DNA from: Spirochaetota bacterium
GTDB taxonomy: Bacteria; Spirochaetota; Spirochaetia; JABEVK01
Reading direction: 5' to 3'
Length of the DNA stretch: 45,338 nucleotides
NCBI GenBank assembly: GCA_020049045.1
Contig: JAIFLN010000053.1
Location: 1-45,338 of the forward strand
The notes under the pieces are model-generated. The model saw nothing but the letters and a program-made list of their open reading frames with translations, was not told the origin of the DNA and searched no databases. This document shows, in pieces, positions 23,502-38,845 of the stretch. The position numbers were made by a program, and so were the translations under genes. The number at the start of each line of letters is the position of its first letter. Within the stretch, counting starts at the first letter, position 1.

Positions 23502-24212
23502 CTACACTCGTACTTTCTTTTCCAGGCTCTCAAAAATCACATCGGCCATCAGGGCCATCAGAACAGGCAAGGCTGCCCCCAAAACGAGCACCTGCCAGCG
23601 GCTGATATTGTTACCCGCAATAATGAGGTTGCCGACACCCCCGCCGCCCACAAAAGCCGCCAGAATGGCCGATCCGATAGTAATGGTGACCGCCGTGCGG
23701 ATACCGGCCATGATCATGGCGGCCGCCATAGGCAGCTCTACCCGAAACAGCACGTGGCGGCCCTTCATTCCCATGCCGTGTGCCGCCTCGGTAATGGAGG
23801 AGTCGACCTCCTGAAGGCCGATCAACGTATTGCTGAGAATCGGCAGCAGTGAGTAAATCCAAAGCGCCACAATGGCTGTCAGCGATCCGACCCCCAAAAA
23901 GCCCACCGACAGGGCAACGACGGCCAGACTGGGCACGGTCTGGCCGATATTCACCAAGGCGAGAACTCGGGGTGCCCAGGACTTCAGCCCTGGACGCGTC
24001 AGGGCTATCCCCAGGGGAACGGCCGTCAGCACAGCGAGCAAGGCGGAAACTCCCACAAGGTAGAAATGCTGAAGCAGGAGCACTGCCAGTTTGTCGTAGG
24101 TCACCAAACGGGCAACCAACCCGTCTTGAGGGTTCTGAACCACCCAAATACTCAGAAAGAGGCCGATCAGCCCGTAAAGAAGGACTTTCAGGAGGCTACT
24201 GAGAGAGGCCAT
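23502..24212 (-). CDS. Osmoprotectant-type ABC transporter permease (OpuCB/OpuCD family), second
   Basis: A 236-residue inner-membrane permease. The ATG at 24212 gives the natural N-terminus MASLSSLLKVLLYG; it overlaps the upstream ATPase gene by 17 bases. Six or so helices and the EAA loop (ITEAAHGMGMKGRHVLFRVELP) are visible, followed by AAFVGGGGVGNLI, typical of betaine/choline permeases. It pairs with the second permease at 25167. Members of this family import quaternary amines, but see the inserted flavoprotein gene, which may point to another substrate. Confidence 0.9.
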   Translation of the reverse strand: MASLSSLLKVLLYGLIGLFLSIWVVQNPQDGLVARLVTYDKLAVLLLQHFYLVGVSALLAVLTAVPLGIALTRPGLKSWAPRVLALVNIGQTVPSLAVVALSVGFLGVGSLTAIVALWIYSLLPILSNTLIGLQEVDSSITEAAHGMGMKGRHVLFRVELPMAAAMIMAGIRTAVTITIGSAILAAFVGGGGVGNLIIAGNNISRWQVLVLGAALPVLMALMADVIFESLEKKVRV

Positions 24213-25170
24213 GGCGGCTTGCCCTCTCCAACAGGTCTTCGAATTCCAGAACACCTACAATCCTGTCTCCGTCTTCGACATAGATAAACCGCTGTCCGGT
24301 GCGCAGCATTTCCGACAGGGCATCCTGCGCAGTTGCCTTCAAGCCCAAGAGCCCATGCCCCGTCGCGCGGGCTTTCTCACCCTCCGAAGGGGAAAGGCTC
24401 TTCATAATCTGTCCGCAAAGCATCAGGTTCAGCATTTTGAGTGAGTTCCGGCCGCCGATCAGTTCCGAGACAAACGGATCAGCCGGATTGGACAGGATCT
24501 CCATAGGGGAGCTCAGCTGAACGATTTGGCCGGCCTTGAGGACGGCAATGTTGTCGCCCATTTTGATGGCTTCTTCAATGTCGTGAGTGACAAACACAAT
24601 CGTCTTGCGGATCTTCTCTTGAATGTGCAGAAACTCATCCTGCATTTTGGCTCGGGTAATGGGATCCAGGGCACCGAAAGGCTCGTCCATGAGCATAATG
24701 GGAGGATCGGCGGCCAGGGCTCGGGCCACCCCCACGCGTTGCTTTTGGCCGCCGCTGAGCTCGTTGGGCTTTTTGTTCCGATACACCTTGGGGTTCAGGT
24801 CCACGAGCTCCAGAAGTTCCTCGATCCGGGCATTGATGCGTTCTTTTTTCCAGCCGAGCTCTCCAGGAACCGTGGCGATATTCTCGCCGACACTCATATG
24901 AGGAAACAATCCGATATCCTGAATAATGTAGCCGATGCTCAAGCGCAGCTCGATGGTGTCGACGGTATCGATGTTTCGCCCATCGATCAGAATGGCCCCC
25001 GAAGTGGGGCGGATGAGCTTGTTGATCATCTTCATCGTTGTCGTCTTGCCGCAGCCGGAGGGTCCGACCAGCATGCAGATTGTCCCCGAGGCGATTTCGA
25101 AGTTCAAGTTGTGGACAGCATCGGCCCCTTCCCCCGGATAACGTTTGACAACATTCTCAAATCGGATCAT
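24196..25170 (-). CDS. Osmoprotectant-type ABC transporter ATP-binding protein with CBS domain
   Basis: A 324-residue ATPase of the ProV/OpuCA group. Walker A is GPSGCGKTT (residues 37-45), the signature is LSGGQKQRVGVARAL, Walker B is IMLMDEPFGALD and the H-loop is VTHD. After the ATPase domain (to about residue 240), the C-terminus holds one CBS-like unit (ATAQDALSEMLRTGQRFIYV, then VGVLEFEDLLE). In OpuA-type systems a CBS pair senses ionic strength; a single unit may dimerise. Its ATG overlaps the upstream permease stop by four bases. Confidence 0.93.
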   Translation of the reverse strand: MIRFENVVKRYPGEGADAVHNLNFEIASGTICMLVGPSGCGKTTTMKMINKLIRPTSGAILIDGRNIDTVDTIELRLSIGYIIQDIGLFPHMSVGENIATVPGELGWKKERINARIEELLELVDLNPKVYRNKKPNELSGGQKQRVGVARALAADPPIMLMDEPFGALDPITRAKMQDEFLHIQEKIRKTIVFVTHDIEEAIKMGDNIAVLKAGQIVQLSSPMEILSNPADPFVSELIGGRNSLKMLNLMLCGQIMKSLSPSEGEKARATGHGLLGLKATAQDALSEMLRTGQRFIYVEDGDRIVGVLEFEDLLERASRHGLSQ

Positions 25171-25787
25171 CGGTTCAGTTTCCTTTGGAGACCACCCAAG
25201 AAACGGTCTGTGAGTATCGAGATCAAAGAGATGATGACGGCGCCCACGATGACCATCTGGTCGTTGCTGCGGCTGATCCCCTGAAAGATGTAGACCCCCA
25301 GACCGCCAGCACCGATGTAGCCTGCAATGGCTCCGATGCCGATTCCCATAACAGTAGCGGTTCGAATTCCTGACATCATGGCGGGAAATGCCAAGGGGAT
25401 TTTGATGGTTCTCAGAATTTTCTTTTCCGTGAGTCCCATGCCTCGGGCGGCTTCGAGAATGGAGGGGTTGATGGTCATCATGCCCGTATACACATTGCGG
25501 ACGATGGGAAGCTGCGTATAAGCCACCAGACCAACAATGGCCGGAATTTTTCCAATCCCCAAAACAGGGATCAGAAGCGAAAACAGCGCGAGACTGGGAA
25601 TGGTCATCAGGATATTGGTGAAATTCAGGACGATTTGAGCCGCCACCTTGTTCTTGGTGATGAGAATTCCGACACTCACGCCCAGCGCAATTGAAATCAC
25701 CATGGCAATGAAAACAATCAACAGGTGCTCTAGAGTCAGGGAGAGAATGGTTGGCCAGCGGGACATCAAGAACTCGAGAAAACTCAC
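25167..25787 (-). CDS. Osmoprotectant-type ABC transporter permease (OpuCB/OpuCD family), first
   Basis: A 206-residue permease starting at GTG behind an aaggag site. Its EAA loop reads ILEAARGMGLTEKKILRTIKIPLAFP and is followed by IAGYIGAGGLG, both typical of the OpuCB/OpuCD pair. It lies 28 bases after the flavoprotein gene and overlaps the ATPase gene by four bases. With the second permease, ATPase and lipoprotein binding component it completes a four-part importer. Confidence 0.92.
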   Translation of the reverse strand: MSFLEFLMSRWPTILSLTLEHLLIVFIAMVISIALGVSVGILITKNKVAAQIVLNFTNILMTIPSLALFSLLIPVLGIGKIPAIVGLVAYTQLPIVRNVYTGMMTINPSILEAARGMGLTEKKILRTIKIPLAFPAMMSGIRTATVMGIGIGAIAGYIGAGGLGVYIFQGISRSNDQMVIVGAVIISLISILTDRFLGGLQRKLNR

Positions 25788-25815: not shown

Positions 25816-27123
25816 TCATACACGACTTTCTTGATTGGCGGCGTTTCTTCCGGCAATGCGGCCAAAAACAAAACACTCGGTGATCGAACAGCTGCCCAAC
25901 CGGCAGGCACCATGAACACCCCCTACCAGCTCTCCGGCAGCATAGAGCCCTGCAATCGGAATCCCCTTGGTATTCAGCACCTGCGCATCGGCATTGATGG
26001 CAAGGCCGCCCATGGTGTAATGCACTTTGGGCCACAAGCGTACACCGTAGTACGGTGGTGCTTTGAAACGGCCCGAACGGATCGTGGTCTCCAACAACCT
26101 TGCCGGGTCCATAGCGTAGGCCGAGGCGAGGTCTTCCAGGCTCCGGAATTCCTTGATCACCCCTTTTTTCAGTCCCCGTTCAAGACTCCAACCGGACTGA
26201 GCTACGGCCTGGGAATCGGCGAGACCGACACAGGGATGGCCAACCGCCAGCAAAGCATCGGCCACAGTTCTTCGATCCCCCATTTCGTCACAAAACCGCT
26301 GTGCCGTGACCGGGTCAACAACAATGCCAAGGGGAAAGACTGTATAGTCGGCGAAACCAGGTGCCTCGCCGTAGCCCTTTTCATCGGGGGAGGCCCAAGG
26401 TCCCAGTTGCACATGGGAGAGATGCAGGGAATCTGCGCCAAGCCGAAGGGCTTCGACCAGGACCTCGGCGGTGGTGAAGGGCTTGTTCGTTGTATCGACC
26501 GCAGCCGTCAGCCGCCCGTCGTGCAGCTGCCGGAACTTCACATCGGCACCAAAACCGCCGGTAGCGAGAACCACTGATCGGGCTTCGATGACCTGCTCTG
26601 ATCCCATTGCCGCATTGCGATGATCGTAGCCTTGCCGCACCACAACCCCGGTGACCCGCCCTTGTGGATCCGTACAAAGCTGCTCCACCTTGGTCTGATA
26701 CAGAATGGAGACGCCCAACTGTGAAAGCTTGGCCAAGAGCGGTCGCAAAAGAGAAACCCCGCTGCGTCCTTTGGCCGTGTAGCAACGGGCCACCGAGTGC
26801 CCACCAAAGATTTCAAGCCGATCGAGGTACTCAACGCCGAGAACATCGCGGGACCACTCAAGGGATTCTTGAGCCTTTTCGGCAAGAAGGCGCGCCAATT
26901 CCGGTTTGTTCAAGCCCTGCCCCGCCCGAAGCAGGTCGTTATAAAACAACTCGGGTGAGTCATCCGCTCCGAGAGCCGCAAAGCCGCCATCACTGATGAT
27001 CGAGTTGCCACCGGCGGCCCGCATTTTCTCAAGCACCAGTACCGACGCCCCCCCGGCAGCCGCCTCAACGGCAGCTACCAGGCCGGCAAACCCGCTGCCT
27101 ATGACAAGAACATCGGTCGTCAT
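25816..27123 (-). CDS. Fumarate reductase-like FAD flavoprotein inside the ABC importer operon
   Basis: A 435-residue FAD_binding_2 protein. The chosen ATG shares one base with the upstream stop (TAATG); an earlier start would add ten residues inside that gene. The dinucleotide motif GSGFAG is at residues 9-14, and LEKMRAAGGNS follows as in flavocytochrome c and urocanate reductases. Near the C-terminus H368 (VHYTMGG) and R408 (HGACRLGS) match active-site residues of fumarate reductases. There is no signal peptide and no heme motif, so it is a cytoplasmic, soluble flavoenzyme. It probably reduces or oxidises the compound brought in by the transporter around it. Confidence 0.88.
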   Translation of the reverse strand: MTTDVLVIGSGFAGLVAAVEAAAGGASVLVLEKMRAAGGNSIISDGGFAALGADDSPELFYNDLLRAGQGLNKPELARLLAEKAQESLEWSRDVLGVEYLDRLEIFGGHSVARCYTAKGRSGVSLLRPLLAKLSQLGVSILYQTKVEQLCTDPQGRVTGVVVRQGYDHRNAAMGSEQVIEARSVVLATGGFGADVKFRQLHDGRLTAAVDTTNKPFTTAEVLVEALRLGADSLHLSHVQLGPWASPDEKGYGEAPGFADYTVFPLGIVVDPVTAQRFCDEMGDRRTVADALLAVGHPCVGLADSQAVAQSGWSLERGLKKGVIKEFRSLEDLASAYAMDPARLLETTIRSGRFKAPPYYGVRLWPKVHYTMGGLAINADAQVLNTKGIPIAGLYAAGELVGGVHGACRLGSCSITECFVFGRIAGRNAANQESRV

Positions 27124-28037
27124 TATGGAAGCAGACCCACGTCCTTCATCCACGCTTGGGCCACATCACGGGGCACCTTCTGTTCGATATCAACGAGGTA
27201 GTTCATCTGCATGATGGCGGCGTTGTCGAGTTTGGCGGCGATTTGCCCCAGCAGCTCGACAAGCTTCGGGTTCTTGTCGGCAAATTCGGTCCTCACATTG
27301 GCCGAGGGGTTATAGGCGGGAAAAAACGCCTTGTCATCCTCTATGTTGACCAGTCCGAAAGCCTGAATGCGACCATCGGTAGAGAAGCCCATGCCGATTT
27401 CCGCCTGATTCTCCTTGAGAGCTTTATAGACAATGGCGTTGTCCATAACAATCGTCTTGTCTTCCTTCATTTTGAAACCATAGGTGGTCTCAAGACCCGG
27501 CAGGCCGTCTGATCGGGCCGTGAATTCATGGTCCACGGCAAAAGACAGCTGCTCGGGATGAGTGGACTGGTAGGCACCCAGCTGGCTGAGGGTCTGAATT
27601 CCCAGCGACTCGGCCTGTGCCTTTCGCATCATGACGGTATAGGTGTTGTTAAAGGGTGCATAGGGCAGCCATTCGATGCCGTTCTTGCGGTCCTCGTCCC
27701 GGACACTTTCATAACAGCTCTGCGACTCAGTCAGGGGATTGTCATGTTGCAGGTGCGACAGCCATCCCGTCCCTGTGTATTCCCAGTACACGTCAATTTC
27801 CTTGGTGAGCAGGGCACTCCGAACCTTGTTGGAGCCCGCCACACCGGTTTTGTCCTCGACGGAGTACCCGGCATTCTCAAGCGCCAGCAGGGTAATCTGA
27901 CCCAAAATCAACTGCTCAGTATATTCCTTCGATCCCACCCGGACCGTTTCCTTAGCAGGAGCACAGCCGGTGATCAGCAACGAGCCGATCAGCACGATCA
28001 GAAGCAGGGGAGCCAGCGGTTTGCCAGTCGTTCTCAT
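27123..28037 (-). CDS. Lipoprotein substrate-binding protein of the OpuC-type importer
   Basis: A 304-residue binding lipoprotein. The start at 28037 has a ggaagg ribosome site and gives a signal peptide with the lipobox LITGC, so the mature protein is tethered by Cys. The mature part is of the OpuAC/ProX type: VRVGSKEYTEQLILGQ and VYWEYTGTGW match glycine betaine/choline binding proteins. Its ATG overlaps the surE stop by four bases (ATGA). The ligand could be betaine, choline, carnitine or a related compound. Confidence 0.9.
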   Translation of the reverse strand: MRTTGKPLAPLLLIVLIGSLLITGCAPAKETVRVGSKEYTEQLILGQITLLALENAGYSVEDKTGVAGSNKVRSALLTKEIDVYWEYTGTGWLSHLQHDNPLTESQSCYESVRDEDRKNGIEWLPYAPFNNTYTVMMRKAQAESLGIQTLSQLGAYQSTHPEQLSFAVDHEFTARSDGLPGLETTYGFKMKEDKTIVMDNAIVYKALKENQAEIGMGFSTDGRIQAFGLVNIEDDKAFFPAYNPSANVRTEFADKNPKLVELLGQIAAKLDNAAIMQMNYLVDIEQKVPRDVAQAWMKDVGLLP

Positions 28038-28816
28038 AGGGTACCTTCCTTCGTGGACAAATCCCACCCCAAAGGGGTGAGTGAAATGACTTTTTCAAAA
28101 TGCAGAGCTCGGATATCGGAACCCGGCTCGGCCTGATCGAGATGGGAGTCAGGCTCAGACCGAAGCTGAAAGCCCTGATGCCAAGGCCGGGGTGCGGGCC
28201 GGCAAAACCGAGAACTGCTGTACCGGCTCTGCCGGGTGATATGAACGGCGGTGTTCTGATCGGCACCGATAGGAACATTCAGATTGAGCACTGAAACGGC
28301 CTCGGGCAGACCCTGGCTCAGAACCCGGGCCGCCCAGTGGGCCGCCACACGCTGGCAGGCACCCCAATCCATGGCCGGATAGTCGGTTGCATGCTGCTGA
28401 TCCAGGGGTGTCTGCAGAGAAACCGCGATGGCAGGGATTCCGTGACTGAACGCTTCGAACGCGGCCCCAAGGGTGCCGCTGCAGGTGAGCGAAAGCCCGA
28501 CATTTTCACCGTAGTTGATACCGCTAAGGCACAGGTCGGGTGTCCGGTCTGCAATCTCCAAAACGGCATGGGCCACCGCCTGTGCCGGTGACCCGCTGAC
28601 ACCGTAACCCCGTACCATCGTTTCCCCGACACGAAGATCGACCTCCTCGATCTTTCCAGAACTGTCATTTCGGGGAAACGATCTTCCCATTGTTGTCTGC
28701 TGCCAACGAGGTGCCACAATCAAGAGGTCTGCCAAGTGCCCAACCGCCTCGGCCAAGGCGGCCAGTCCTGGAGAAAAGACCCCGTCATCGTTGGTCAGCA
28801 GAATCAACGGTTTCAC
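28034..28816 (-). CDS. surE: 5'-nucleotidase SurE
   Basis: A 260-residue SurE-family phosphatase. Metal-binding LTNDDG is at residues 7-12, and VSGSPAQAVAHAV, LSGINYGENVG and GTLGAAFEA are the other family blocks. The usual Ser after VAP-x-x-x-Q is Thr here (VAPRWQQTTMG). SurE removes phosphate from nucleoside monophosphates and some polyphosphates. It is locked in the operon by four-base overlaps with the FGGY kinase upstream and the binding protein downstream, an unusual setting for surE. A role on a different phospho-compound is possible. Confidence 0.92.
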   Translation of the reverse strand: MKPLILLTNDDGVFSPGLAALAEAVGHLADLLIVAPRWQQTTMGRSFPRNDSSGKIEEVDLRVGETMVRGYGVSGSPAQAVAHAVLEIADRTPDLCLSGINYGENVGLSLTCSGTLGAAFEAFSHGIPAIAVSLQTPLDQQHATDYPAMDWGACQRVAAHWAARVLSQGLPEAVSVLNLNVPIGADQNTAVHITRQSRYSSSRFCRPAPRPWHQGFQLRSEPDSHLDQAEPGSDIRALHFEKVISLTPLGWDLSTKEGTL

Positions 28817-30240
28817 AGCTGATGAACAGCCTTGAGCGCAGGCTCCAACAACTTTGGTAAGTCACGGTACGCCACGGTATTGATCTTTGCGTACTGAGCG
28901 TGTCTGTCCATGTCGGGAAGGAACGAGTCACGTTCTTCGACCATGGCAACAGCAGCGTCCTGAAAACTCTTATACAGACCGGCAGCCACAGCCACACAGA
29001 TAGCGGAACCCAAAGCAGCGGCACCGTTGACCTTGTTGCGGACCGTTTTCACGCCATACAGGTCGGCGATAATCTGCATGTACAGATCACTGTTGGATCC
29101 GCCTCCCGAAACAATGATCTTCTGAGGTTTCTTGCCCAGTTCCGTGTTCATCGCGTCATAACTGTTCATCAAAGTCATGGCGATGCCTTCCAGCAGAGAC
29201 CGATAAATGTGCCCTCTGGTGTGCCGCTCGTCAAAACCGAGGATCACCCCTTTGCGGTAAAGCTGAGTGGCCGGTGCCAACCAGTCCGGTATGGTGAACA
29301 ACCCGTCGGACCCGGGCGGCACCGCTTCTGCTTCCTTAGCCAGCGCGTCTTCTACCGAAACACCATCTCTCTTCGCCTTGGCAGCGTATTCCTCGCCAAT
29401 GATGCCCTTGTACCAGGAAATCAGCCACATACCCCGGCGGATGCCCCCGCTTTCATAAAGGTATTGGTTGGGAATACACGACAAGTTGGTGAAGAAGTTG
29501 GTCGCATTGGGAAGATTCTTGGATCCATACACCATGGAGGTGATGTAGGTTCCCAGGGATACCAGCCCCGTGTCAGGACTGATCAATCCCGACCCCAAAG
29601 CTTCCACGGCTTTGTCGTTGGCAGTGGATACCACAGGAAGCCCCAGCGGCAGGCCCGTTTCCCGAGAGGCTTTTTCGTTCACATGCCCTAAGATGGTGCC
29701 GGGAATCTGAATATCCATCAGCTTGCTGCGAGGAATCCCGAAACCCTTGAAATAGGTTTCGTCCTCAGACCAGTCCCAGGTCTCCATATCGACCGGAAAC
29801 TGCCACTGGTAGGCGTTTGCTGACATTTCCTTAAACGCACCGGTTAAGCGGAAAGTCAGGTAGCCGGAAGTAGAGCACGTATAAGCGATTTGTGGATCAT
29901 CCTCAAATTTTTCGTACGCACGAATATCCATCCAACTCATCACAGGAGCTGCCAATGTTCCATCACTTTTCATAAAAACCCGGCAACAGCGGATAGAACA
30001 CAAACCCACACCTACAATATCTTTGGGATTTCCCTTAAATTCCTTCATAACTTTCTGAAGGACGATTTTTAGACTATCCCATAAATCATCATCTGGATGC
30101 TCTACGTAACCGGGTTTTCGTGTCTGCATTGGCCTCAAACCTTCACTGGCTGTGCAGACGACGTTCCCTCGCTGATTAAAGATTGTCACCTTGGTACTTT
30201 GCGATCCGCTATCAACACCAATCAAGTATTTCTCACTCAT
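28813..30240 (-). CDS. FGGY-family carbohydrate kinase (xylulokinase-like)
   Basis: A 475-residue sugar kinase with two actin-fold halves. The N-terminal phosphate loop is IGVDSGSQSTKVTIF (residues 7-21); the second half carries LSLGTY-like GLVSLGTYITS and the C-terminal IIVSGGGSNSDLYMQ ATP site. Family members phosphorylate xylulose, ribulose, glycerol or related polyols and ketoses; the sequence does not let me choose. The start ATG follows aaggag. The dehydrogenase gene 35 bases upstream suggests an oxidise-then-phosphorylate route for a polyol. Confidence 0.9.
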   Translation of the reverse strand: MSEKYLIGVDSGSQSTKVTIFNQRGNVVCTASEGLRPMQTRKPGYVEHPDDDLWDSLKIVLQKVMKEFKGNPKDIVGVGLCSIRCCRVFMKSDGTLAAPVMSWMDIRAYEKFEDDPQIAYTCSTSGYLTFRLTGAFKEMSANAYQWQFPVDMETWDWSEDETYFKGFGIPRSKLMDIQIPGTILGHVNEKASRETGLPLGLPVVSTANDKAVEALGSGLISPDTGLVSLGTYITSMVYGSKNLPNATNFFTNLSCIPNQYLYESGGIRRGMWLISWYKGIIGEEYAAKAKRDGVSVEDALAKEAEAVPPGSDGLFTIPDWLAPATQLYRKGVILGFDERHTRGHIYRSLLEGIAMTLMNSYDAMNTELGKKPQKIIVSGGGSNSDLYMQIIADLYGVKTVRNKVNGAAALGSAICVAVAAGLYKSFQDAAVAMVEERDSFLPDMDRHAQYAKINTVAYRDLPKLLEPALKAVHQL

Positions 30241-30275: not shown

Positions 30276-31055
30276 TCAGCGCATGAGGTAACCACCATCC
30301 ACCGTGAGAACATGGCCGTTGACATAGTTCGAAGCATCGCTCGACAAGAAGACGCAGGTCCCCATTAAATCAGCCAGCCAACCCCAGCGGTTGGCGGGAA
30401 TATGCGAAAGAATGGTCTTGTTGCGCTCGGGATCGCTGCGTGTTTTTTCTGTCAGTTTGGTTGCGAAATATCCGGGTGCAATAGCGTTGACCTGAATATC
30501 AAATTGGGCCAATTCATCGCACATGGATTTGGTTAAACCGGCAATACCATGCTTGGTAGCAGCGTAGGCAGGTGACCATTGTCCACCGAGGAAAGAAAAC
30601 AGTGAGCCGATGTTAATGACCTTGCCGCGACGTTGGGGAATCATGAACTGAAGAGCTTCGTGGGTCATCTCAAAAGCGGCAGTGAGATTGACCGAAACCA
30701 TCTTGTCCCATTCCTTGCGGCCAAACTTGGTGACGTCTTCGATATTGATGCAAATACCGGCGCAGTTGACAAGGATATCGATGTGACCCCAAGTATCAAC
30801 ACAGTCCTTGACCACACGCTTGCACTCACCGTCAGCTGTAATGTCGGCTTTTACATATTTATATTTTTGGCCGGCACCTTCAATGATACCTTTGGCCTCA
30901 CCATCGTCATCCATAATACTGACAGCCATGACATTCGCACCGGCCTTAGCCAACGCGGAAGAAAAGGCCAGGCCTAGACCGCTGTTACCACCAGTAACGA
31001 TGGCATTTTTGCCTTTGAGTGAAAACCAATTCATATTGAAATCTTGAATTTCCAT
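30276..31055 (-). CDS. SDR-family dehydrogenase (gluconate 5-dehydrogenase-like)
   Basis: A 259-residue classical short-chain dehydrogenase. TGGNSGLGLAF binds the cofactor, NCAG is the NNAG variant, the catalytic Ser lies in INIGSLFSF and YAATK supplies Tyr and Lys; all key residues are present. It ends GHVLTVDGGYLMR, typical of 2-deoxy-gluconate or gluconate dehydrogenases. It probably interconverts a polyol or sugar acid with its keto form using NAD(P). The start has an aggag site. Confidence 0.88.
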   Translation of the reverse strand: MEIQDFNMNWFSLKGKNAIVTGGNSGLGLAFSSALAKAGANVMAVSIMDDDGEAKGIIEGAGQKYKYVKADITADGECKRVVKDCVDTWGHIDILVNCAGICINIEDVTKFGRKEWDKMVSVNLTAAFEMTHEALQFMIPQRRGKVINIGSLFSFLGGQWSPAYAATKHGIAGLTKSMCDELAQFDIQVNAIAPGYFATKLTEKTRSDPERNKTILSHIPANRWGWLADLMGTCVFLSSDASNYVNGHVLTVDGGYLMR

Positions 31056-31075: not shown

Positions 31076-32008
31076 TTAGCGTTGTATTCGTTTCAGTAAC
31101 TGATCAATAAAATCGACAGCATCGCCAACGACAACAACGTCGGCCAAGCTGCAAATCGGTGCCAGGGGATCGATGTTCACAGAAATGAGATGCTGCACAT
31201 TTTTCAGCCCTTCCATGTGTTGTACCGAGCCATAAATACCCAAGGCAATGTAAAGTCGGGGGCTAACCGTCTTGCCGGATTGCCCAACCTGGATTTTTCG
31301 CGAAGCAACACCGCTATCAACAATTCTCCGGCTGGCAGAAACCTGACCGCGTAAGGCTTCAGACAAATCTTGAAGCCGCGAGAAATGCTCCAGCACACCG
31401 CCACCGCCAGAAATCAAAACTTCACTGTCTCGAATATCTTTGGTTGCAGGTTTTTCACGGGAGCCGATGAAAGTAATACCGCTGCTTTTCCGTTGAAAAG
31501 GAAACACTCTATGCTGGGTCGTTTTGAAAGGATTCGTCGCGGCGGGAAAGACGCCTGGGCGTATCGTCATCATCAGAGGACCCATGCCCTTTTTGACGAT
31601 TCCTGCGAACAGTTTTCCACTGTAGGCCGGACGGATCATTTCGAGCTGGCCATTCACTTGTTCAAGACCGGTAACGTCTGCAACCAAACCGACATCGAGG
31701 CGCATGGCAAGCCGTGGAGCCACCATTCGGCCATAATTGGTTGCGGGAACTATGATGCAATCAAAGCCGTATTCCTCGTGTAGTTTAGCTGCAATTAATG
31801 CAATATTCGCCGTATCGTAAGCAGGTATTTGTGACCCTTCCGCGTGCACAAGAACATCAAAGTATTCTGCGGAACTTGCTATCTGGGAATCCAAAGGAAG
31901 ACCTACGGTAAATACCGAGGATTTTTCAAAAATGCGGTGTGCAACTTCGAGAAGTTCGAGTGGAAGATTCGGTTGATTGTTCTCCAGAAGCACCAAGCAT
32001 TTTTTCAT
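31076..32008 (-). CDS. etfA: Electron transfer flavoprotein alpha subunit
   Basis: A 310-residue EtfA/FixB protein. The C-terminal FAD-binding block is clear: SGVASRKIQVGQSGKTVSPR (from about residue 224), then LYIALGIYGSVQHMEGLK and the SVNIDPLAPI segment. It carries the FAD that takes electrons from dehydrogenases. Its start overlaps the etfB stop by four bases. The FAD oxidase at the head of the operon is the likely electron donor. Confidence 0.94.
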   Translation of the reverse strand: MKKCLVLLENNQPNLPLELLEVAHRIFEKSSVFTVGLPLDSQIASSAEYFDVLVHAEGSQIPAYDTANIALIAAKLHEEYGFDCIIVPATNYGRMVAPRLAMRLDVGLVADVTGLEQVNGQLEMIRPAYSGKLFAGIVKKGMGPLMMTIRPGVFPAATNPFKTTQHRVFPFQRKSSGITFIGSREKPATKDIRDSEVLISGGGGVLEHFSRLQDLSEALRGQVSASRRIVDSGVASRKIQVGQSGKTVSPRLYIALGIYGSVQHMEGLKNVQHLISVNIDPLAPICSLADVVVVGDAVDFIDQLLKRIQR

Positions 32009-32766
32009 AACAGGAACCCGTTTTTTTTCAGGTACCCATACACCGTCTCAATACCGTCTTCGTCGTTCTGGACAATCAGCTTTTCTTCCTTTGACCACTT
32101 CTGAACGAACGTTCTGTTGACTTGCGTTTTAGACCCCTCGAGCCCGACTTCTTCCGGAAGAAAACCAAGTTCCAAATTGGTCAGGACACGAACCTGAGAC
32201 GAAACATCCCTGTTCAAATCTTGATAGGCGACGTAGGGCAACTTATACGAACTGTCCTTGTGCACACTCAAGATCGCAGGCAGCTCCACTTGGAAAGTCT
32301 GGATGCTCGAGTCGTTATCCACTTCGATTTCTGGCTTTCCAGCAAGAAAGGAACCGGCTTCAATGGCAAGTATATTGGACATTTGAGGCAGGTCACAAAT
32401 CTCTGCCAGTTGCGAAGGAACCTGCGCGGTATCTCCATCGACGCTATGTGTACCGGTAAGAATCACGTCATAGTTCGTCTGTTGGAGATACCGTGCAAGA
32501 ATCCGGGTTGTCGCCCAGGTATCACTGCCACCGAAGGCTTTGTCAGAAATGAGAGTCGCCAGATCGACGTTCAGCCTGAGCAAGTCTTCGAGATGACCCA
32601 TCACGGTACGCGGAGCCATGGTGACAACCTCAATGATGGTTTCGGGATTTCTCCGCTTGATCATCAAGGCGTAAGCCAAAGCACAGGCATCGTCCGGGTT
32701 GAGGATGCGGTTAGTGCTATCCTCCTCCACATCAGGAACAAACTTGATCAGGCAAACGATCTTCAT
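32005..32766 (-). CDS. etfB: Electron transfer flavoprotein beta subunit
   Basis: A 253-residue EtfB/FixA protein. The start MKIVCLIKFVPD and the GTHSVDGDTAQVPSQLAE motif (about residues 112-129; usual form G-x-x-x-x-D-G-D-T-A-Q-V) identify the family. It binds AMP or a second FAD depending on type; whether this pair is electron-bifurcating cannot be settled by eye. It overlaps the MFS gene by four bases and etfA by four bases. Confidence 0.94.
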   Translation of the reverse strand: MKIVCLIKFVPDVEEDSTNRILNPDDACALAYALMIKRRNPETIIEVVTMAPRTVMGHLEDLLRLNVDLATLISDKAFGGSDTWATTRILARYLQQTNYDVILTGTHSVDGDTAQVPSQLAEICDLPQMSNILAIEAGSFLAGKPEIEVDNDSSIQTFQVELPAILSVHKDSSYKLPYVAYQDLNRDVSSQVRVLTNLELGFLPEEVGLEGSKTQVNRTFVQKWSKEEKLIVQNDEDGIETVYGYLKKNGFLL

Positions 32767-34040
32767 TCTGCCGCTTTGTCCTTTTTGACCATGACACCGA
32801 AAATAAAGACAAGCACAACACCAATCAGGCCAAGTACAGCGCTAGAAAGGAAATACGCGTTGTATCCACCCTTGGCGCCAAAAGTTGTCCAGAGCATGGA
32901 GTTGAAACCAGGAAGAATGATGTCGGGCAGGTATCCGAAGAACGAGATCACACCGATAGCCGTCCCCAGAATCAGGGCATCAATCTTGTAATCGCCCAGC
33001 AGGGACCAGTAGGTTCCCCGGATGGCATACAAGAAGATTCCCAAAACAACGATCAGGCTGGAGAACAGAAGGGCACCGCTGGAAACAGGCAGAACGGCGG
33101 TCAGGATCAAACAAAGGGCAGCCCCTGCCAAAGAACCCATCTGAACCTTGTCCTTGCCGATTTTGTCAGCGAGGAAGCCACCGATAAAGCCACCGACAGG
33201 CCTCATCCACAGAACAATGACCATGACCAGTGCCACAGAAACAGCGTCGATACCGACGTTGGACTCCAGGAATCCGCCAAGGTAGTACACCGTCCAGAAC
33301 ACCGAGTAGCCCATGAAAATGATGCCGCCGTGCAGGTAAATCTTAGGATTCTTGAACAGCACCCCAAGGTCGCTGAACTTAAATGAAGCAGACTTGACTG
33401 CTTCTTTCTTCGTGGCATCATTCGCCAGCAGTTTCTTGTCATCGGTTACGAACAGCATGACCAAGACAGCTGTGACAATCAAAACTATGGAGTACATGTA
33501 GATGACAGCAATCAACGCAACACGCTTGTCGACGAGTTCGAGGCTGCCGGCCAGCATGGTTGAGAAGATAAACAAGGCAATACTCGCCAGGACTGCTTCC
33601 ACAACCCCGCGTCCGCCATCGAGAATACCGAAGAAGGTACCCTGTTCATTTTCATTCGCCAGAAGTTTGACCAACTTCATGTGAGCGCTCCAGAAGGTGA
33701 AAACGGAGAAGAAGCCCCAGATAGCGAAAATATAGGGAACCATGGTGGTGTCAGGAACCTGCGCGAACCACAATCCGCCCAAGCCTGTAAAAAATAGAGA
33801 AATAGCCAGCAACTTCTTTGCCGAGAAACGGTCACTCAGAAAACCGCTGGGAAGGTAACCAATCACGAAAACCCAACCCAAAACGGTGTACATCATGTTC
33901 AGGTCGGTCATAGACATATTGAAGACCGCCAGAATTGTCTCTTGGTAGTTGCTCTTCAAATAAATCAACGGATAAATCGATCCGGCTGCCAAGACGATTA
34001 AAAAGAACTGAAAATACTTAGCCAATTTTTCCTTGTTCAT
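32763..34040 (-). CDS. Major facilitator superfamily transporter
   Basis: A 425-residue membrane protein with about 12 hydrophobic helices. The loop after helix 2 reads GYLPSGFLSDRFSAKKLL, the MFS signature (G-x-x-x-D-R-x-x-x-R/K-x-x), and a matching loop GGFLADKIGKDKV lies in the second half. Its overall look recalls the sugar-phosphate/anion branch, but I cannot name the substrate. Position directly after the FAD oxidase suggests it imports the compound that the operon degrades. The start has an aggag site. Confidence 0.88.
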   Translation of the reverse strand: MNKEKLAKYFQFFLIVLAAGSIYPLIYLKSNYQETILAVFNMSMTDLNMMYTVLGWVFVIGYLPSGFLSDRFSAKKLLAISLFFTGLGGLWFAQVPDTTMVPYIFAIWGFFSVFTFWSAHMKLVKLLANENEQGTFFGILDGGRGVVEAVLASIALFIFSTMLAGSLELVDKRVALIAVIYMYSIVLIVTAVLVMLFVTDDKKLLANDATKKEAVKSASFKFSDLGVLFKNPKIYLHGGIIFMGYSVFWTVYYLGGFLESNVGIDAVSVALVMVIVLWMRPVGGFIGGFLADKIGKDKVQMGSLAGAALCLILTAVLPVSSGALLFSSLIVVLGIFLYAIRGTYWSLLGDYKIDALILGTAIGVISFFGYLPDIILPGFNSMLWTTFGAKGGYNAYFLSSAVLGLIGVVLVFIFGVMVKKDKAAE

Positions 34041-34072: not shown

Positions 34073-35545
34073 CTATTTCTGATACTTCTTACCTTCCTCC
34101 TGCGGGTAGATCGTTCCAAAATTCATGATTCCTTTAGGGTCAAAAGCACTTTTCAGCGTTTCAAGCATGTAATAGGCCGACCCGTGTTCTTCTTTGGTCC
34201 ACTCATTACGATACTTTCCAATACCGTGGTGGTGACACATAGAGCCACCCAATTTCAACGTTTCTTCCACAATAATTGTTTGCAGGGGATGATGATAAAT
34301 TCGCATTTCATCTTCAGGATTGCAGTGGATCTTGTAGTTATAGACAAAGTACATATTCGTTCCGTTGCTATAACTATGTGAGGAGTGTCCACCGAGCATC
34401 GTCAGATCGGCAGCCCGCGAGAATTCTTTGCGGATCCGAGCAATCACATTCCGATAGATTTTGGGAATCGTCTCCCAATCAGCGGAAATCTCCGTCGTGA
34501 ATCCTGCGTGAGAATCATTCTCGATCATGCCTTCAAATTCATCATCAATATCTTTTTGCGACCAGTTGAGGTGATTAAACCAATCTTGGATCAATTTGCT
34601 TTCGACTTTTTCGACAATGCCGTCGGCAAAGGTTTTCACAGCCTGCTCAATTCCCTTGGCGGTTGCCGCAACAATATCGCTGTTGCCTTCCGCCATAAAA
34701 ATCAACACACAGTGGTTTTTATAAAAGTGATAGAAATGCTGGGCCGCGTCTTCTTCCGAGTAGGTTCTAGCAACCGATGGTCGGTACCCATTCGCCATCA
34801 CTTCCCGCAAGACTTTAATCCCGGTTTCAATATCCTTGATTAAATACCCGAAGAACTGATGATTCTCTGGAAAATAGCGGAACAGTTTAACAGTGACCTC
34901 GGTAATGTAGCAAAGAGTGCCTTCATTACCAATGGCAATATGGCGGATGTCCGGCCCCCCCGCACGACGGGAAACATTCTTAATTCGTGACACATGACCG
35001 TTAGGAAACACACACTCCAGACCGACAACCATGTCCTCAATTCCCCCGTAAAGGGTTGAGAATTGACCGATGCTACGTGTGGCTACCAAACCGCCCATTT
35101 TTGCTACTGGCTTGGATTGAGGAGAGTGGCCGGTCGTGTATCCCATCTTTCGAACAGCATCTTCCAGTTGCTGCAAAGGCACACCAGCCTGTGCCGTTGC
35201 CTGCATATTGTACACGTCAATCTTCAGAATTTTATTCAGCAACAAGGCATCAATAACAAGCGTCAAGTCTTTCCAGTTTTCGAGACCACCTTCTGTGGCA
35301 GTTTTTCCTCCACGAGCAATCACATTGATTTGATTCTTGTTACAGAACATCAATAGCTGGCTGACTTGGGCGGGAGAATTGGGATAGACAATAGCAATAG
35401 GAAGAGGAACATCAAGGACCTTTCTGGCTTTCGCATATTTCTTATATCGATCTGCGGAAGCGTCATACAACTCTTCATGGTTGGTATTGATCTGATCAAC
35501 TTTCAGAATAGTTGACAGCTCTTCCAACACTTTTTTTCGATCCAT
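34073..35545 (-). CDS. FAD-binding oxidase/dehydrogenase, AGPS/GlcD-type (first gene of the GlpP-linked operon)
   Basis: A 490-residue VAO-type flavoprotein. The FAD_binding_4 domain covers about residues 50-230 (VIARGGKTATEGG; then GHSPQSKPVAKMGG). Near the C-terminus CHHHGIGKYR (H438-H440) matches the His cluster of alkyl-DHAP synthases, and the rest resembles GlcD/LctD-type 2-hydroxyacid dehydrogenases. With etfBA in the same operon, it probably oxidises a hydroxy compound and passes electrons to ETF, as lactate dehydrogenase LctD does. The leader with a GlpP-type switch suggests a glycerol-phosphate-like substrate. The start has a very good aaggag site. Confidence 0.86.
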   Translation of the reverse strand: MDRKKVLEELSTILKVDQINTNHEELYDASADRYKKYAKARKVLDVPLPIAIVYPNSPAQVSQLLMFCNKNQINVIARGGKTATEGGLENWKDLTLVIDALLLNKILKIDVYNMQATAQAGVPLQQLEDAVRKMGYTTGHSPQSKPVAKMGGLVATRSIGQFSTLYGGIEDMVVGLECVFPNGHVSRIKNVSRRAGGPDIRHIAIGNEGTLCYITEVTVKLFRYFPENHQFFGYLIKDIETGIKVLREVMANGYRPSVARTYSEEDAAQHFYHFYKNHCVLIFMAEGNSDIVAATAKGIEQAVKTFADGIVEKVESKLIQDWFNHLNWSQKDIDDEFEGMIENDSHAGFTTEISADWETIPKIYRNVIARIRKEFSRAADLTMLGGHSSHSYSNGTNMYFVYNYKIHCNPEDEMRIYHHPLQTIIVEETLKLGGSMCHHHGIGKYRNEWTKEEHGSAYYMLETLKSAFDPKGIMNFGTIYPQEEGKKYQK

Positions 35546-35574
35546 ATTTCATCTCCTTCTGAGCTCGAAAGGGC

Positions 35575-35674
35575 AAAAAAAAAAGCACAGAGAACAGAAT
35601 TCCCCGGAAAAGATCGTTAATCTTGAAAACAAGAAAAAACGAACTCTTGAAAGGGAATTACTGTTCTCTGTGCT
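35575..35674 (-). terminator. Leader terminator (attenuator) of the FAD oxidase operon
   Basis: On the minus strand the arm 35674-35653 pairs with 35605-35584: 14 perfect pairs (agcacagagaacag against its complement), one bulged base (35660), then 7 more pairs (aattccc with gggaatt). The loop is about 48 bases. A run of ten U residues follows (35584-35575). It lies wholly in the 5' leader, 30 bases before the coding start, so it must be read through for expression. Confidence 0.88.
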
Positions 35675-35684
35675 CTAGTAATTC
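35655..35684 (-). promoter_or_regulatory. Candidate antiterminator hairpin in the leader (GlpP target)
   Basis: On the minus strand gaattac (35684-35678) is perfectly complementary to gtaattc (35661-35655), with a 16-base loop. The second arm overlaps the ascending arm of the terminator, including its bulged base. The two structures therefore exclude each other. This is the expected layout of a protein-controlled antitermination switch. Confidence 0.6.
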
Positions 35685-35690
35685 AAGGCA

Positions 35691-35719
35691 ATGCTACAAC
35701 GGGTCCCGTAGGCCGTCAA
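35691..35719 (-). promoter_or_regulatory. Sigma-70 promoter of the FAD oxidase-ETF-kinase operon
   Basis: On the minus strand TTGACG (35719-35714) and TAGCAT (35696-35691) are separated by exactly 17 bases. Transcription would begin near 35684, the first base of the candidate antiterminator. It sits in the gap after glpP. Confidence 0.72.
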
Positions 35720-35733
35720 GGACTTTTTTTTGC

Positions 35734-36300
35734 TTACAACGCCCAAACGATAGGATTTGTCGATGAAACGGCCTTTGCGCCTGCCTTCAAAGCTGCCTCG
35801 GCATCTTCTCGGTCGCAGACAAGTCCCCCTGCAATCACAGGAATGGACACCTGTTCAACGACCCAACCGATCACTTTCGGCATGCAGCCAGGCATGATCT
35901 CGATGCAATCGGGCTGGGAGATTTCTACCTGCTTTCCCAGATTGTTGTAGGAAAAGGAATCAATCAGAAAAAAACGATGTACGGTAAACAGACCCTGCGC
36001 CTTGGCGGCCTTGATCATCGAAGCTTTTGAACTCAAGATTCCGTCGGTCTGGGTGTTCTGTTTCAGAAAGTGAACACTGATATCTCGATTTGAGAAGCCG
36101 TCGATCAGGTCGACGTTGAGAAAGACCATTTTGCCATGGTCCTTCAATGTCTTCACGATGGAGCCCACATTCAGAATGTCCCCGTACAGGACAAAGACGA
36201 TTTTGCAGTCCGACGTGAGGACCTGCTGAAGACCGGCGTCATCCTTGATCCCGGCGATACTCGGTTTCTTCTCAATACTTGCCAACAGCCAGTTACTCAC
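35734..36300 (-). CDS. glpP: GlpP-family glycerol-3-phosphate responsive antiterminator
   Basis: A 188-residue protein of the GlpP family, which in Bacillus binds glycerol-3-phosphate and leader RNA to prevent early termination of glpD. Family landmarks are FLNVDLIDGFSNRD, DGILSSKASMIKAAKAQG, HRFFLIDSFS, PDCIEIMPGCMPKVIG and IPVIAGGLVCDREDAEAAL. The start is GTG 36300, preceded by ggagg and overlapping the carbonic anhydrase stop (GTGA). A longer frame upstream lies inside the previous gene. Its gene ends just before the promoter and attenuator it probably controls. The true inducer here is not known. Confidence 0.92.
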   Translation of the reverse strand: MSNWLLASIEKKPSIAGIKDDAGLQQVLTSDCKIVFVLYGDILNVGSIVKTLKDHGKMVFLNVDLIDGFSNRDISVHFLKQNTQTDGILSSKASMIKAAKAQGLFTVHRFFLIDSFSYNNLGKQVEISQPDCIEIMPGCMPKVIGWVVEQVSIPVIAGGLVCDREDAEAALKAGAKAVSSTNPIVWAL

Positions 36301-36950
36301 GGTTCCTCCCCATAGTTCACTGGAACGACACCCTCGTACTTCCATTGCTCCAGCGGAAGGGGAAGGTCATTGATCAGGCCGGTTCGGATATCCAGGACCC
36401 AACCGTGAACTTTGGGATAGTAGCCCCCTGCTTCGATCAAACGCTCAAGATCAGAAATCTTGAAGACGTTCTTTACCTGAGCAAGAACGTTGAGCTCAGT
36501 CAGAAGGTCGAGTCTGACTTTCTCATCCGGTATGGCATCAAGCTCATGCTTGTGCGCCCGGATAATATCTTTAATGGGAGTGGTCCAGTTTTCCTTCAGG
36601 CCTCGCAGATCATTTCGATAGGCGCCGGTAACCCCACCGCACTCGTAGTGCCCGCAGACAATGATATGCCGCACCTGCAATGTGTCGATGGCGAATTCCA
36701 GGGCGGCGAGCAGGTTCATATCAGTTTGGCTGACCTGGTTGGCAATATTGCGGTGAATAAACAACTCACCAGGTTCTGTCTGGGTCAGAGTGTCGATGGG
36801 GACCCGGCTGTCACTGCATCCGATGTACATAAAAGGCGGTTTTTGGTACTCGCTGAGGGTCTCGAAGTACTTGGGGTCCTTTTTGAGTTTATCGACGGCC
36901 CAACGGGTGTTGTTGCGGATCAGTTCATCGTAGTGATGGTAGTGGCGCAT
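36297..36950 (-). CDS. Beta-class carbonic anhydrase
   Basis: A 217-residue enzyme interconverting CO2 and bicarbonate. Zinc ligands are C45 (GCSDSRV, with D47 and R49 as the catalytic dyad), H101 and C104 (CGHYECGGV). Length and motifs match bacterial beta-CA. It is coupled to glpP by a four-base overlap, an odd pairing; perhaps bicarbonate is needed by the pathway or the two merely share transcription. The ATG follows a ggagg-like site. Confidence 0.95.
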   Translation of the reverse strand: MRHYHHYDELIRNNTRWAVDKLKKDPKYFETLSEYQKPPFMYIGCSDSRVPIDTLTQTEPGELFIHRNIANQVSQTDMNLLAALEFAIDTLQVRHIIVCGHYECGGVTGAYRNDLRGLKENWTTPIKDIIRAHKHELDAIPDEKVRLDLLTELNVLAQVKNVFKISDLERLIEAGGYYPKVHGWVLDIRTGLINDLPLPLEQWKYEGVVPVNYGEEP

Positions 36951-37070: not shown

Positions 37071-38837
37071 TTACTTCACGTACAAAGGCCTGGGCACATA
37101 GTGGGTGTGCAGCAGATGATGCGCCTTCTCGCTGTTGGGCTTGCCAAGGAAATCCTTGTAGAGCGCTTGAACCGAAGGATTTTCATGGCTCAAGCGGATA
37201 ACGGAATCCTTGTCATCCTTGTAGATTCCTGCTGTCCGTTTGGCACGCACTTCGTCGGTGGAACCGTAGGGCTGTCCGCCACCAGAAATACAGCCGCCAC
37301 GGCAGGCCATAACCTCGATGAAGTGGAAGGGAAGTTCCTTTCCGGCTGCTTTGGCGGCGCGAACCTGTTCCATCACAACCTTGACATTGGCCATTCCGTG
37401 AGCGATGGCAAACCTGACCTCGATCTCCTTGCCACCGGCCGGAATCTTGACGCTGGCGATTTTCACACCGTCCATACCACGGGCAGCAACGAGGTCAACC
37501 GAAGTAAGATTCTTGCCGCTCACCATATAGTAGGCGGTTCTGAGGGCAGCTTCCATAACACCACCGGTGGCACCGAAGATGGTGGCAGCGCCAGTGTAGA
37601 TACCAAGCGGGCTGTCGGCCGGTTCGTCGGGCAGATTCACAAAGTCGATGCCGGCCTGCTTGATCATACGGGCCAATTCGCGGGTGGTCAGCGACAGATC
37701 GACGTCTGCGGCACCGGAGGAACGCATGTCGTCGGAGCGCTGGATTTCGTACTTTTTGGCGGTACAAGGCATAATGGCCACCGATACGATGTCGGCGGCC
37801 GTCTTTCCGGCTTTCTCGGCATAGTAGGTCTTCACCATGGCACCCATCATCATCATGGGGCTCTTGGCCGTTGAGAAGTTCGAGATCATATCGGTGTGAT
37901 ACTTCTCGAGGTAGTCGACCCAGCTGGGGCAACAGGAGGTGATCAGCGGAAGCTCACCACCGGTGGTGAAGCGATGAATGAACTCGCTGGCCTCTTCCAT
38001 AATGGTCAGGTCGGCCGACAGATTGGTGTCAAACACTTTGGAGAAGCCCAAGCGCCGCAAGGCCGCATACACCTTGCCAGTAACCAGGGTACCAGGCTCC
38101 AGACCGAACTCTTCGCCAAGGGCAACGCGGACTGCGGGGGCAATCTGAACGACGACTTCTTTGCTCTTGTCGCGGAGCGCGGCCCAGGCTTTGCGGGTCT
38201 CATCGACTTCAGTAATGGCACCGACAGGACAATGCGCCGAGCACTGACCGCACTTGATACAGGGGCTTTCGGCCAGGGTGACGTCTCCGGCGGGAGCAAT
38301 GCGGGTTTGGTCACCGCGGTTGAGAAATTCCAGTGCCCACACGTCCTGCATCTGCTGACAGACCAAGGCGCACCTTCCACAGGCGATACACTTGGCGGGG
38401 TGCAACTGCACCGACGGGGTCGACAGGTCTTCGGGAAGCCGCCTTACGCCGCTGGCAAAGGGAACGTCGCGGATACCGAACTCGGCACTGAGGGTCTGCA
38501 GCTCGCAACAGCCGTTGCGGGGGCAGGTCAGACACTCGTTCGGGTGGTTGGACATGATCAGTTCCAACGTTGTGCGCCGGGTTTCGACGATATCGGGGTC
38601 ATGGGTGATGTAGTTCTGACCTTCGACGACCTCGGTGGTGCAGGCCCGCACCATTTTGGGGGAACCTTCGACCTTGACCACGCAGATGCCGCACGCACCC
38701 CAGGCCTTGAGGTCCGGATGGGCACAGAGGGCGGGAATCTTGGTATTGGCCAGCTTGCCGGCTTTCAGAACGCTGGTCCCCGCTGGAACAGTGACGGGGG
38801 TGCCGTTGATTTTGATGTTGATATTCATCGTGTTCAT
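37071..38837 (-). CDS. hydA: [FeFe] hydrogenase catalytic subunit, HndD/HydA type
   Basis: A 588-residue NAD-linked hydrogenase subunit. In order it has a plant-type [2Fe-2S] domain (C38, C49, C52, C66), a His-Cys3 cluster site (HPNECLTCPRNGC, 98-110), two [4Fe-4S] sites (CIACGRCALVC at 150-160 and CIKCGQCSAHC at 193-203) and the H-cluster domain. All H-cluster motifs are intact: TSCCPSW (300-306), MPCTAKK (356-362) and MACRGGCISGGGQP (510-523). With HndA-C-like partners this is the trimeric or tetrameric, possibly electron-bifurcating, class. ATGs at 38837 and 38828 are both possible starts. Confidence 0.97.
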   Translation of the reverse strand: MNTMNINIKINGTPVTVPAGTSVLKAGKLANTKIPALCAHPDLKAWGACGICVVKVEGSPKMVRACTTEVVEGQNYITHDPDIVETRRTTLELIMSNHPNECLTCPRNGCCELQTLSAEFGIRDVPFASGVRRLPEDLSTPSVQLHPAKCIACGRCALVCQQMQDVWALEFLNRGDQTRIAPAGDVTLAESPCIKCGQCSAHCPVGAITEVDETRKAWAALRDKSKEVVVQIAPAVRVALGEEFGLEPGTLVTGKVYAALRRLGFSKVFDTNLSADLTIMEEASEFIHRFTTGGELPLITSCCPSWVDYLEKYHTDMISNFSTAKSPMMMMGAMVKTYYAEKAGKTAADIVSVAIMPCTAKKYEIQRSDDMRSSGAADVDLSLTTRELARMIKQAGIDFVNLPDEPADSPLGIYTGAATIFGATGGVMEAALRTAYYMVSGKNLTSVDLVAARGMDGVKIASVKIPAGGKEIEVRFAIAHGMANVKVVMEQVRAAKAAGKELPFHFIEVMACRGGCISGGGQPYGSTDEVRAKRTAGIYKDDKDSVIRLSHENPSVQALYKDFLGKPNSEKAHHLLHTHYVPRPLYVK

Positions 38838-38845
38838 ACTCTCCC

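Follow-up and report, generated by a model that had tools for sequence, protein, structure and literature searches.

Antitermination by GlpP is already known: in Bacillus subtilis the protein acts on glpD, glpFK and glpT through a GlpP site and an inherent terminator in their leaders (PMC9604022), and when loaded with glycerol-3-phosphate it is said to bind the antiterminator (PMC7430163). Neither a published YgcP target nor a GlpP antiterminator structure was present in the open literature that we searched (the original B. subtilis glpD-leader papers fall outside that scope and may hold an antiterminator drawing), and comparative regulon work in Thermotoga omitted the GlpP-family element as "not studied by comparative genomics" (PMC3750489). 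What is new here is a structurally defined RNA target that crosses phyla, together with a YgcP regulon. The locus lies in a 45,338-nucleotide stretch of a Spirochaetota genome (the whole of which is referred to hereafter as the window) and resembles B. subtilis GlpP control of glpD, glpFK and glpTQ, in that the regulators are homologous and promoter, leader and conditional terminator follow in the same order. It differs in protein clade, in its fixed loop and stem sequence and in its operon, and whereas the B. subtilis ligand is glycerol-3-phosphate, that of the window's YgcP-type protein is not known to be so.

The glpP/ygcP-type gene of the window (35734..36300, minus strand, with its stop codon at 35734) encodes a putative RNA-binding antiterminator of 188 amino acids, homologous to the GlpP family (PF04309) over the whole domain (E 1.7e-63, 213.5 bits against a cut-off of 27, profile positions 2-173 of 173) and with 3KTS and 1VKF as relatives in the PDB. 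Its closest public relatives come from a Spirochaetes MAG (84% identical), a Bacillota MAG, Cohnella and several Enterobacterales, and in a protein tree it falls within a YgcP clade of 13 members (support 100/99) that also holds E. coli YgcP, annotated "putative anti-terminator"; a similar E. coli ORF was reportedly noted in the 1998 GlpP paper. The Pfam scan of the window regulator returned G3P_antiterm plus weak TIM-barrel matches, with no CAT_RBD or PRD domain, and a BglG/RAT reading was rejected on these grounds. The BglG/SacY/LicT proteins and their RAT hairpins are alike in their working (a protein-stabilized hairpin overlaps the terminator 5' arm), but those proteins are unrelated to the GlpP type, and the window RNA differs in being a hairpin with a large purine loop and no Rfam match. 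Some residues that are otherwise conserved in the family distinguish YgcP proteins from classical GlpP (K/R72 in place of D, and H108 in place of Q, the latter adjoining an R109 common to both classes), so ligand and RNA specificity may differ between the two; for a member of the YgcP clade, glycerol-3-phosphate is just one possible ligand. The GTG start codon of the gene overlaps the end of a carbonic anhydrase gene (36297-36950), from whose transcript the regulator may be expressed.

Along the minus strand, glpP is followed by a promoter, a leader and then the gene for a FAD-linked oxidase, which starts at 35545 (Shine-Dalgarno AAGGAG at about 35558-35553). The sigma-70-type promoter, TTGACG-17-TAGCAT (35719-35691), stands directly behind glpP with the 17-bp spacing given in a sequence-only reading of this DNA, and recurs with the same hexamers and spacing in a MAG leader (L004); Bacillota leaders and those of G387, a genome of the window's phylum, have near-consensus promoters whose -10 box ends 5-9 nt ahead of the modelled hairpin. 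If transcription starts some 7 nt past the -10 box the RNA would begin GAAUUACUAGAGCACAGAGAACAGUAAUUC, and at this predicted 5' end lies the predicted antiterminator hairpin GAAUUACU[AGAGCACAGAGAAC]AGUAAUUC (35684-35655), in which eight perfect Watson-Crick pairs between the 5' arm (35684-35677) and the 3' arm (35662-35655) close a 14-nt loop with a tandem GAG motif (35676-35663). Only 9 of 5000 dinucleotide shuffles gave an equally good hairpin within the first 45 nt. The loop and 3' arm together make the 5' arm of an intrinsic terminator hairpin (35676-35582) with a U10 tract (35584-35575, exactly ten T), and the two leader hairpins are mutually exclusive, as that reading had held. Its description of the terminator as 21 bp with a U10 tail was right as to the tail; the outer stem is somewhat longer, at 16 + 8 pairs with one bulged U, and this bulged base does pair in the 5' hairpin (with an A), as it had described. 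The leader as a whole has a minimum free energy of -55.5 kcal/mol (z = -7.7; 0 of 200 shuffles as stable). Stepwise folding gives the 5' hairpin as the minimum-energy structure up to about nt 85, with the terminator taking over at about nt 90 (about -5 kcal/mol, -4.9, for the former versus about -47 kcal/mol for the latter). The layout is thus that of GlpP-type leaders, with a promoter, a leader site and a presumably conditional terminator upstream of the regulated gene, and a conserved alternative hairpin overlapping the terminator.

The operon behind the switch appears to span 12 closely spaced genes down to 23502, continuing past 35545, where the interval of the earlier reading ended; its limits are inferred from gene spacing. 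All on the minus strand, these encode the FAD-linked oxidase (FAD_binding_4 + FAD-oxidase_C, YgcU-like; 34073..35545), an MFS transporter with a YgcS/YqcE-like role (32763..34040), EtfB (YgcR-like; 32005..32766), EtfA (YgcQ-like; 31076..32008), an SDR dehydrogenase (YgcW-like, KduD-related; 30276..31055), an FGGY-family sugar/polyol kinase (YgcE-like; 28813..30240), a SurE phosphatase/nucleotidase whose start overlaps the kinase stop (28034..28816), an OpuAC-type quaternary-amine substrate-binding protein overlapping surE (27123..28067), a FAD_binding_2 oxidoreductase (25816..27153) and, at the probable operon end, the ABC permease, ATPase (with CBS) and second permease of the OpuAC-type transporter (23502..25787). 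No classical glp target (glpF, glpK, glpD or glpT) is found among the window genes, and the kinase, at 121 bits, comes nowhere near the 590-bit GlpK equivalog cut-off. The proposal of a new GlpP regulon with quite different downstream genes is supported, with the regulon assigned to the YgcP type; it also extends beyond this genome, as the genes behind the switch correspond to the E. coli ygcU/S/R/Q/W/E set. Judged from its gene content, the coupling of an oxidase to Etf, an SDR enzyme and a sugar-type kinase suggests that an imported compound is oxidized and phosphorylated.

E. coli MG1655 carries the same gene set (ygcNOP, ygcWUSRQ and yqcE-ygcE), in a region that 5018 of 5426 complete E. 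coli genomes share. This cluster (b2766-b2776) is like the window's in the orthologous clade of its regulator, in its genes and in the hairpin, which both divergent leaders (ygcW and yqcE) carry together with a terminator. It differs in comprising two divergent operons, with ygcP apart in a transcript with ygcNO, whereas the window has one operon, to which surE and the OpuAC-type transporter are added; unlike the window, it is also under apparent CRP control (PMC1794230). The open literature searched gave no function and no inducer for the ygc cluster. The hairpin is the likely RNA target of E. coli YgcP; it would place the ygcW-U-S-R-Q and yqcE-ygcE operons under YgcP, and is of practical value for this gene cluster in offering a target that can be mutated.

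The sequence-only reading had named the absence of either hairpin from related genomes as evidence against it; instead, both recur in several phyla, where compensatory changes preserve them and the regulator accompanies them. The 5' hairpin lies next to close relatives of GlpP in Spirochaetota, Clostridia, Bacilli and Enterobacterales, with arms GAATTACT..AGTAATTC in MAG L004, AAATTACT..AGTAATTT in Cohnella and GTTAC/GTAAC in two divergent copies in Ewingella; in every case the 3' arm serves again in a terminator downstream. Seven 3'-arm bases were checked in each of 28 YgcP-type leaders, and in all 28 the terminator fold pairs 5-7 of them with downstream sequence. The window combines membership of the YgcP clade with the hairpin consensus of that subtype (RTTACY-AGAG-N(4-5)-GAGAA-N-RGTAAY-type).

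A covariance model of the YgcP-type hairpin (R1), built from eight copies including that of the window, scored 50.4 bits on the window hairpin (a training sequence), its sole match in the genome. Nine of ten carrier genomes searched whole gave one to three matches each, those of at least 36 bits all lying on the contig of the regulator; the carriers outside the training set were Limnobaculum, an Enterobacterales MAG and two Rahnella. Extending the survey to 938 sampled genomes (250 Bacilli, 198 of the window's own phylum, 149 Enterobacterales and 341 of the Clostridia-type class of G061) yielded matches of at least 36 bits in seven (the window's, G387, Cohnella, Ewingella, G583, G061 and G761), all seven of which encode a YgcP-type protein; in G761, to which only the RNA model had led, a YgcP gene adjoins the matches. 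Among the Enterobacterales (n = 149), PF04309 exceeds its cut-off in two genomes, and precisely these two have the element (p = 9e-5); within the window's phylum (n = 198) the element occurs in two of the three genomes that pass this cut-off, the third (G408) having a divergent GlpP. Neither G408 nor G023, which also has a divergent GlpP, gave a clear model match. Matches below about 32 bits in Bacilli and other genomes (L030-L046, L048-L050, L052, L054, L183) were set aside on inspection as chance, since either no terminator was found with the hairpin or there was no link to the regulator; the sub-threshold exceptions that we accepted (L028, L029, L184, L185) lie beside a YgcP gene and ahead of a terminator. 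Despite rearrangement the hairpins keep the same target genes, standing separately ahead of ygcW-ygcU, EtfBA and the MFS gene in G387, ahead of ygcU in G061, G163 and G761, and ahead of two divergent BCCT betaine/choline/carnitine transporters in the Clostridia (L198 in G761, L005/L018 in G061). G387 has one YgcP and one divergent GlpP (C142 and C157; L055, L073), the latter with a candidate leader of its own, AATGG[CAAGAGAAAAGAGAG]CCATT, and the Cohnella ygcP locus has a purine riboswitch nearby (L006 2161-2261; Rfam RF00167, 73 bits).

Covariation was assessed on a sequence-only MAFFT alignment of 25 YgcP-type hairpins, where the score was 0.250 as against 0.170 +/- 0.014 for shuffled alignments (0 of 500) and at most 0.170 for slid partners, with both-sided changes in six of the eight pairs. 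The terminator does not include the 5' arm and so cannot account for the covariation seen there. G163 (Bacilli, with divergent ygcW and ygcU) keeps the loop between stems that have changed to CGCU/AGCG and UUGCU/AGCGA. Stems of only 6 bp, or with a mismatched inner pair, occur in E. coli and Ewingella, and the most conserved part of the element is the loop (invariant AG, GAGAA). The glp-type layout described below was first spotted by eye, and a further test was therefore run on leaders chosen only by repeat and terminator, with no stem requirement, by exchanging 5' flanks between them. Natural flanks gave a closing-stem score of 5.70 versus 3.75 +/- 0.19 after exchange for all 57 leaders (z 10.3, 0 of 2000); the score fell from 5.07 to 4.12 in the Bacilli-dominated glp set (z 6.1, 0 of 2000), and the YgcP set alone gave z 4.1.

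Leaders downstream of glpP in Bacilli, of both glpF and glpD types, resemble that of the window in having two GAGA-like loop repeats and a closing stem overlapping the terminator; the stem is short (3-6 bp), and its 3' arm starts the terminator (TTGTG[ATGGAGACCCGGAGACC]CACAA, TAATGG[GGAGACACGGAGAT]CCATTA, AAAGGG[ACAGAGATGAGGAGAAAAC]CCCTTT and ATAGGG[..]CCCTAT are examples). Closing stems and loop lengths are too different between the two classes for a single model. A second model (R2), which covers the glpF-type register only and misses glpD-type leaders, matched 44 of 250 Bacilli genomes at E <= 0.01, all of them among the 182 with GlpP over cut-off (p = 1.7e-7); 19 of the 44 had supplied training sequences, and for the other 25 a hand estimate puts p at about 1e-4. 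The absence of a convincing R2 match in YgcP genomes indicates that the hairpin classes differ in sequence, paralleling the protein tree. Rfam 15 has no family at or above gathering threshold for either hairpin class (sub-threshold matches only), so that the GlpP family now has a covariation-defined RNA element absent from Rfam, usable for finding YgcP/GlpP regulons in other genomes. About 10-15 nt ahead of the first GGAGA, close to where the RNA is predicted to begin, Bacilli glpF leaders (L078-L164) also share a conserved AAGTTAATA-like box that the glpD and YgcP types lack and that may be a further contact or stability element; in several Bacilli (e.g. G200, G222, G254, G282) glp-type hairpins lie far from glpP and are possible additional GlpP targets.

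These observations bear on three other accounts of the locus. The strength of loop conservation and the shortness of the glp-type closing stem would suit a regulator that reads the tandem GAG(A) as single-stranded RNA (cf. TRAP, HutP) and blocks the terminator directly, the stem merely presenting the repeats; a pure single-strand site would need no stem, however, and the 6-10 bp of the YgcP leaders are kept by compensatory change, which makes this account unlikely. We regard it as very improbable that the inverted repeat is instead a DNA operator at +1 for a dimeric transcription factor. The repeat is perfect and lies right behind the -10 box, a common position for operators, but conservation is highest in the asymmetric stretch of 14-15 nt that the arms enclose, the 3' half also serves a terminator in every case, and presence of the element tracks an RNA-binding family rather than a DNA-binding gene; U-G wobbles on the transcribed strand at two of the pairs (in four and two sequences) likewise favour RNA over a DNA operator. 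Least probable of all is an ordinary glpP terminator followed by an unregulated operon, with the 5' hairpin a coincidence: its position directly downstream of the glpP stop codon would be expected, yet in E. coli, G387, G061, G163 and G761 the hairpin-terminator unit precedes other genes and not the ygcP 3' end, promoters lie upstream of the unit, and the unit is conserved and covaries.

We are therefore confident that the switch is one of protein-controlled transcription antitermination of the GlpP family, YgcP subtype. The computation shows that both structures exist, exclude each other, are conserved, covary and occur together with the regulator; binding by YgcP, its dependence on a ligand and the direction of control we infer from the GlpP precedent. 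Transcription would begin from the promoter just past glpP, and the leading ~30 nt of the RNA would fold into the hairpin with its conserved 14-15 nt purine-rich loop (AGAGnnnnGAGAA). Were active YgcP absent, this hairpin would be overtaken by the terminator built from the same bases, and transcription would stop at the U10 tract; YgcP carrying its ligand, which is probably some phosphorylated pathway metabolite, would bind and stabilize the loop-hairpin, blocking the terminator and allowing polymerase to read through into the genes for the FAD oxidase, MFS transporter, EtfBA, SDR enzyme, FGGY kinase, SurE and quaternary-amine ABC transporter.

BCCT transporters in the Clostridia and the OpuAC-type transporter in the window point to a quaternary-amine-like substrate; the presence of two unrelated quaternary-amine transporter families in the regulon is a lead to the nature of the pathway compound, not proof. 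More tentatively, and short of a view that we would favour outright, the GlpP family may recognize a general element, a hairpin whose loop carries tandem GAGA and whose variable closing stem overlaps the terminator, and may do so in two or more specificity classes. One of these, the YgcP class, would govern from spirochaetes to E. coli an oxidative pathway not yet described (FAD oxidase + Etf, SDR, FGGY kinase) that is linked to these transporters, and would respond to a phosphorylated product of the pathway and not to glycerol-3-phosphate. Elsewhere in the window (37071-40633) lies an [FeFe]-hydrogenase, with a NuoF-type, NADH dehydrogenase-like subunit immediately upstream of it, from which the organism is probably an anaerobe; in such an anaerobe the FAD-oxidase/Etf module could be electron-confurcating.
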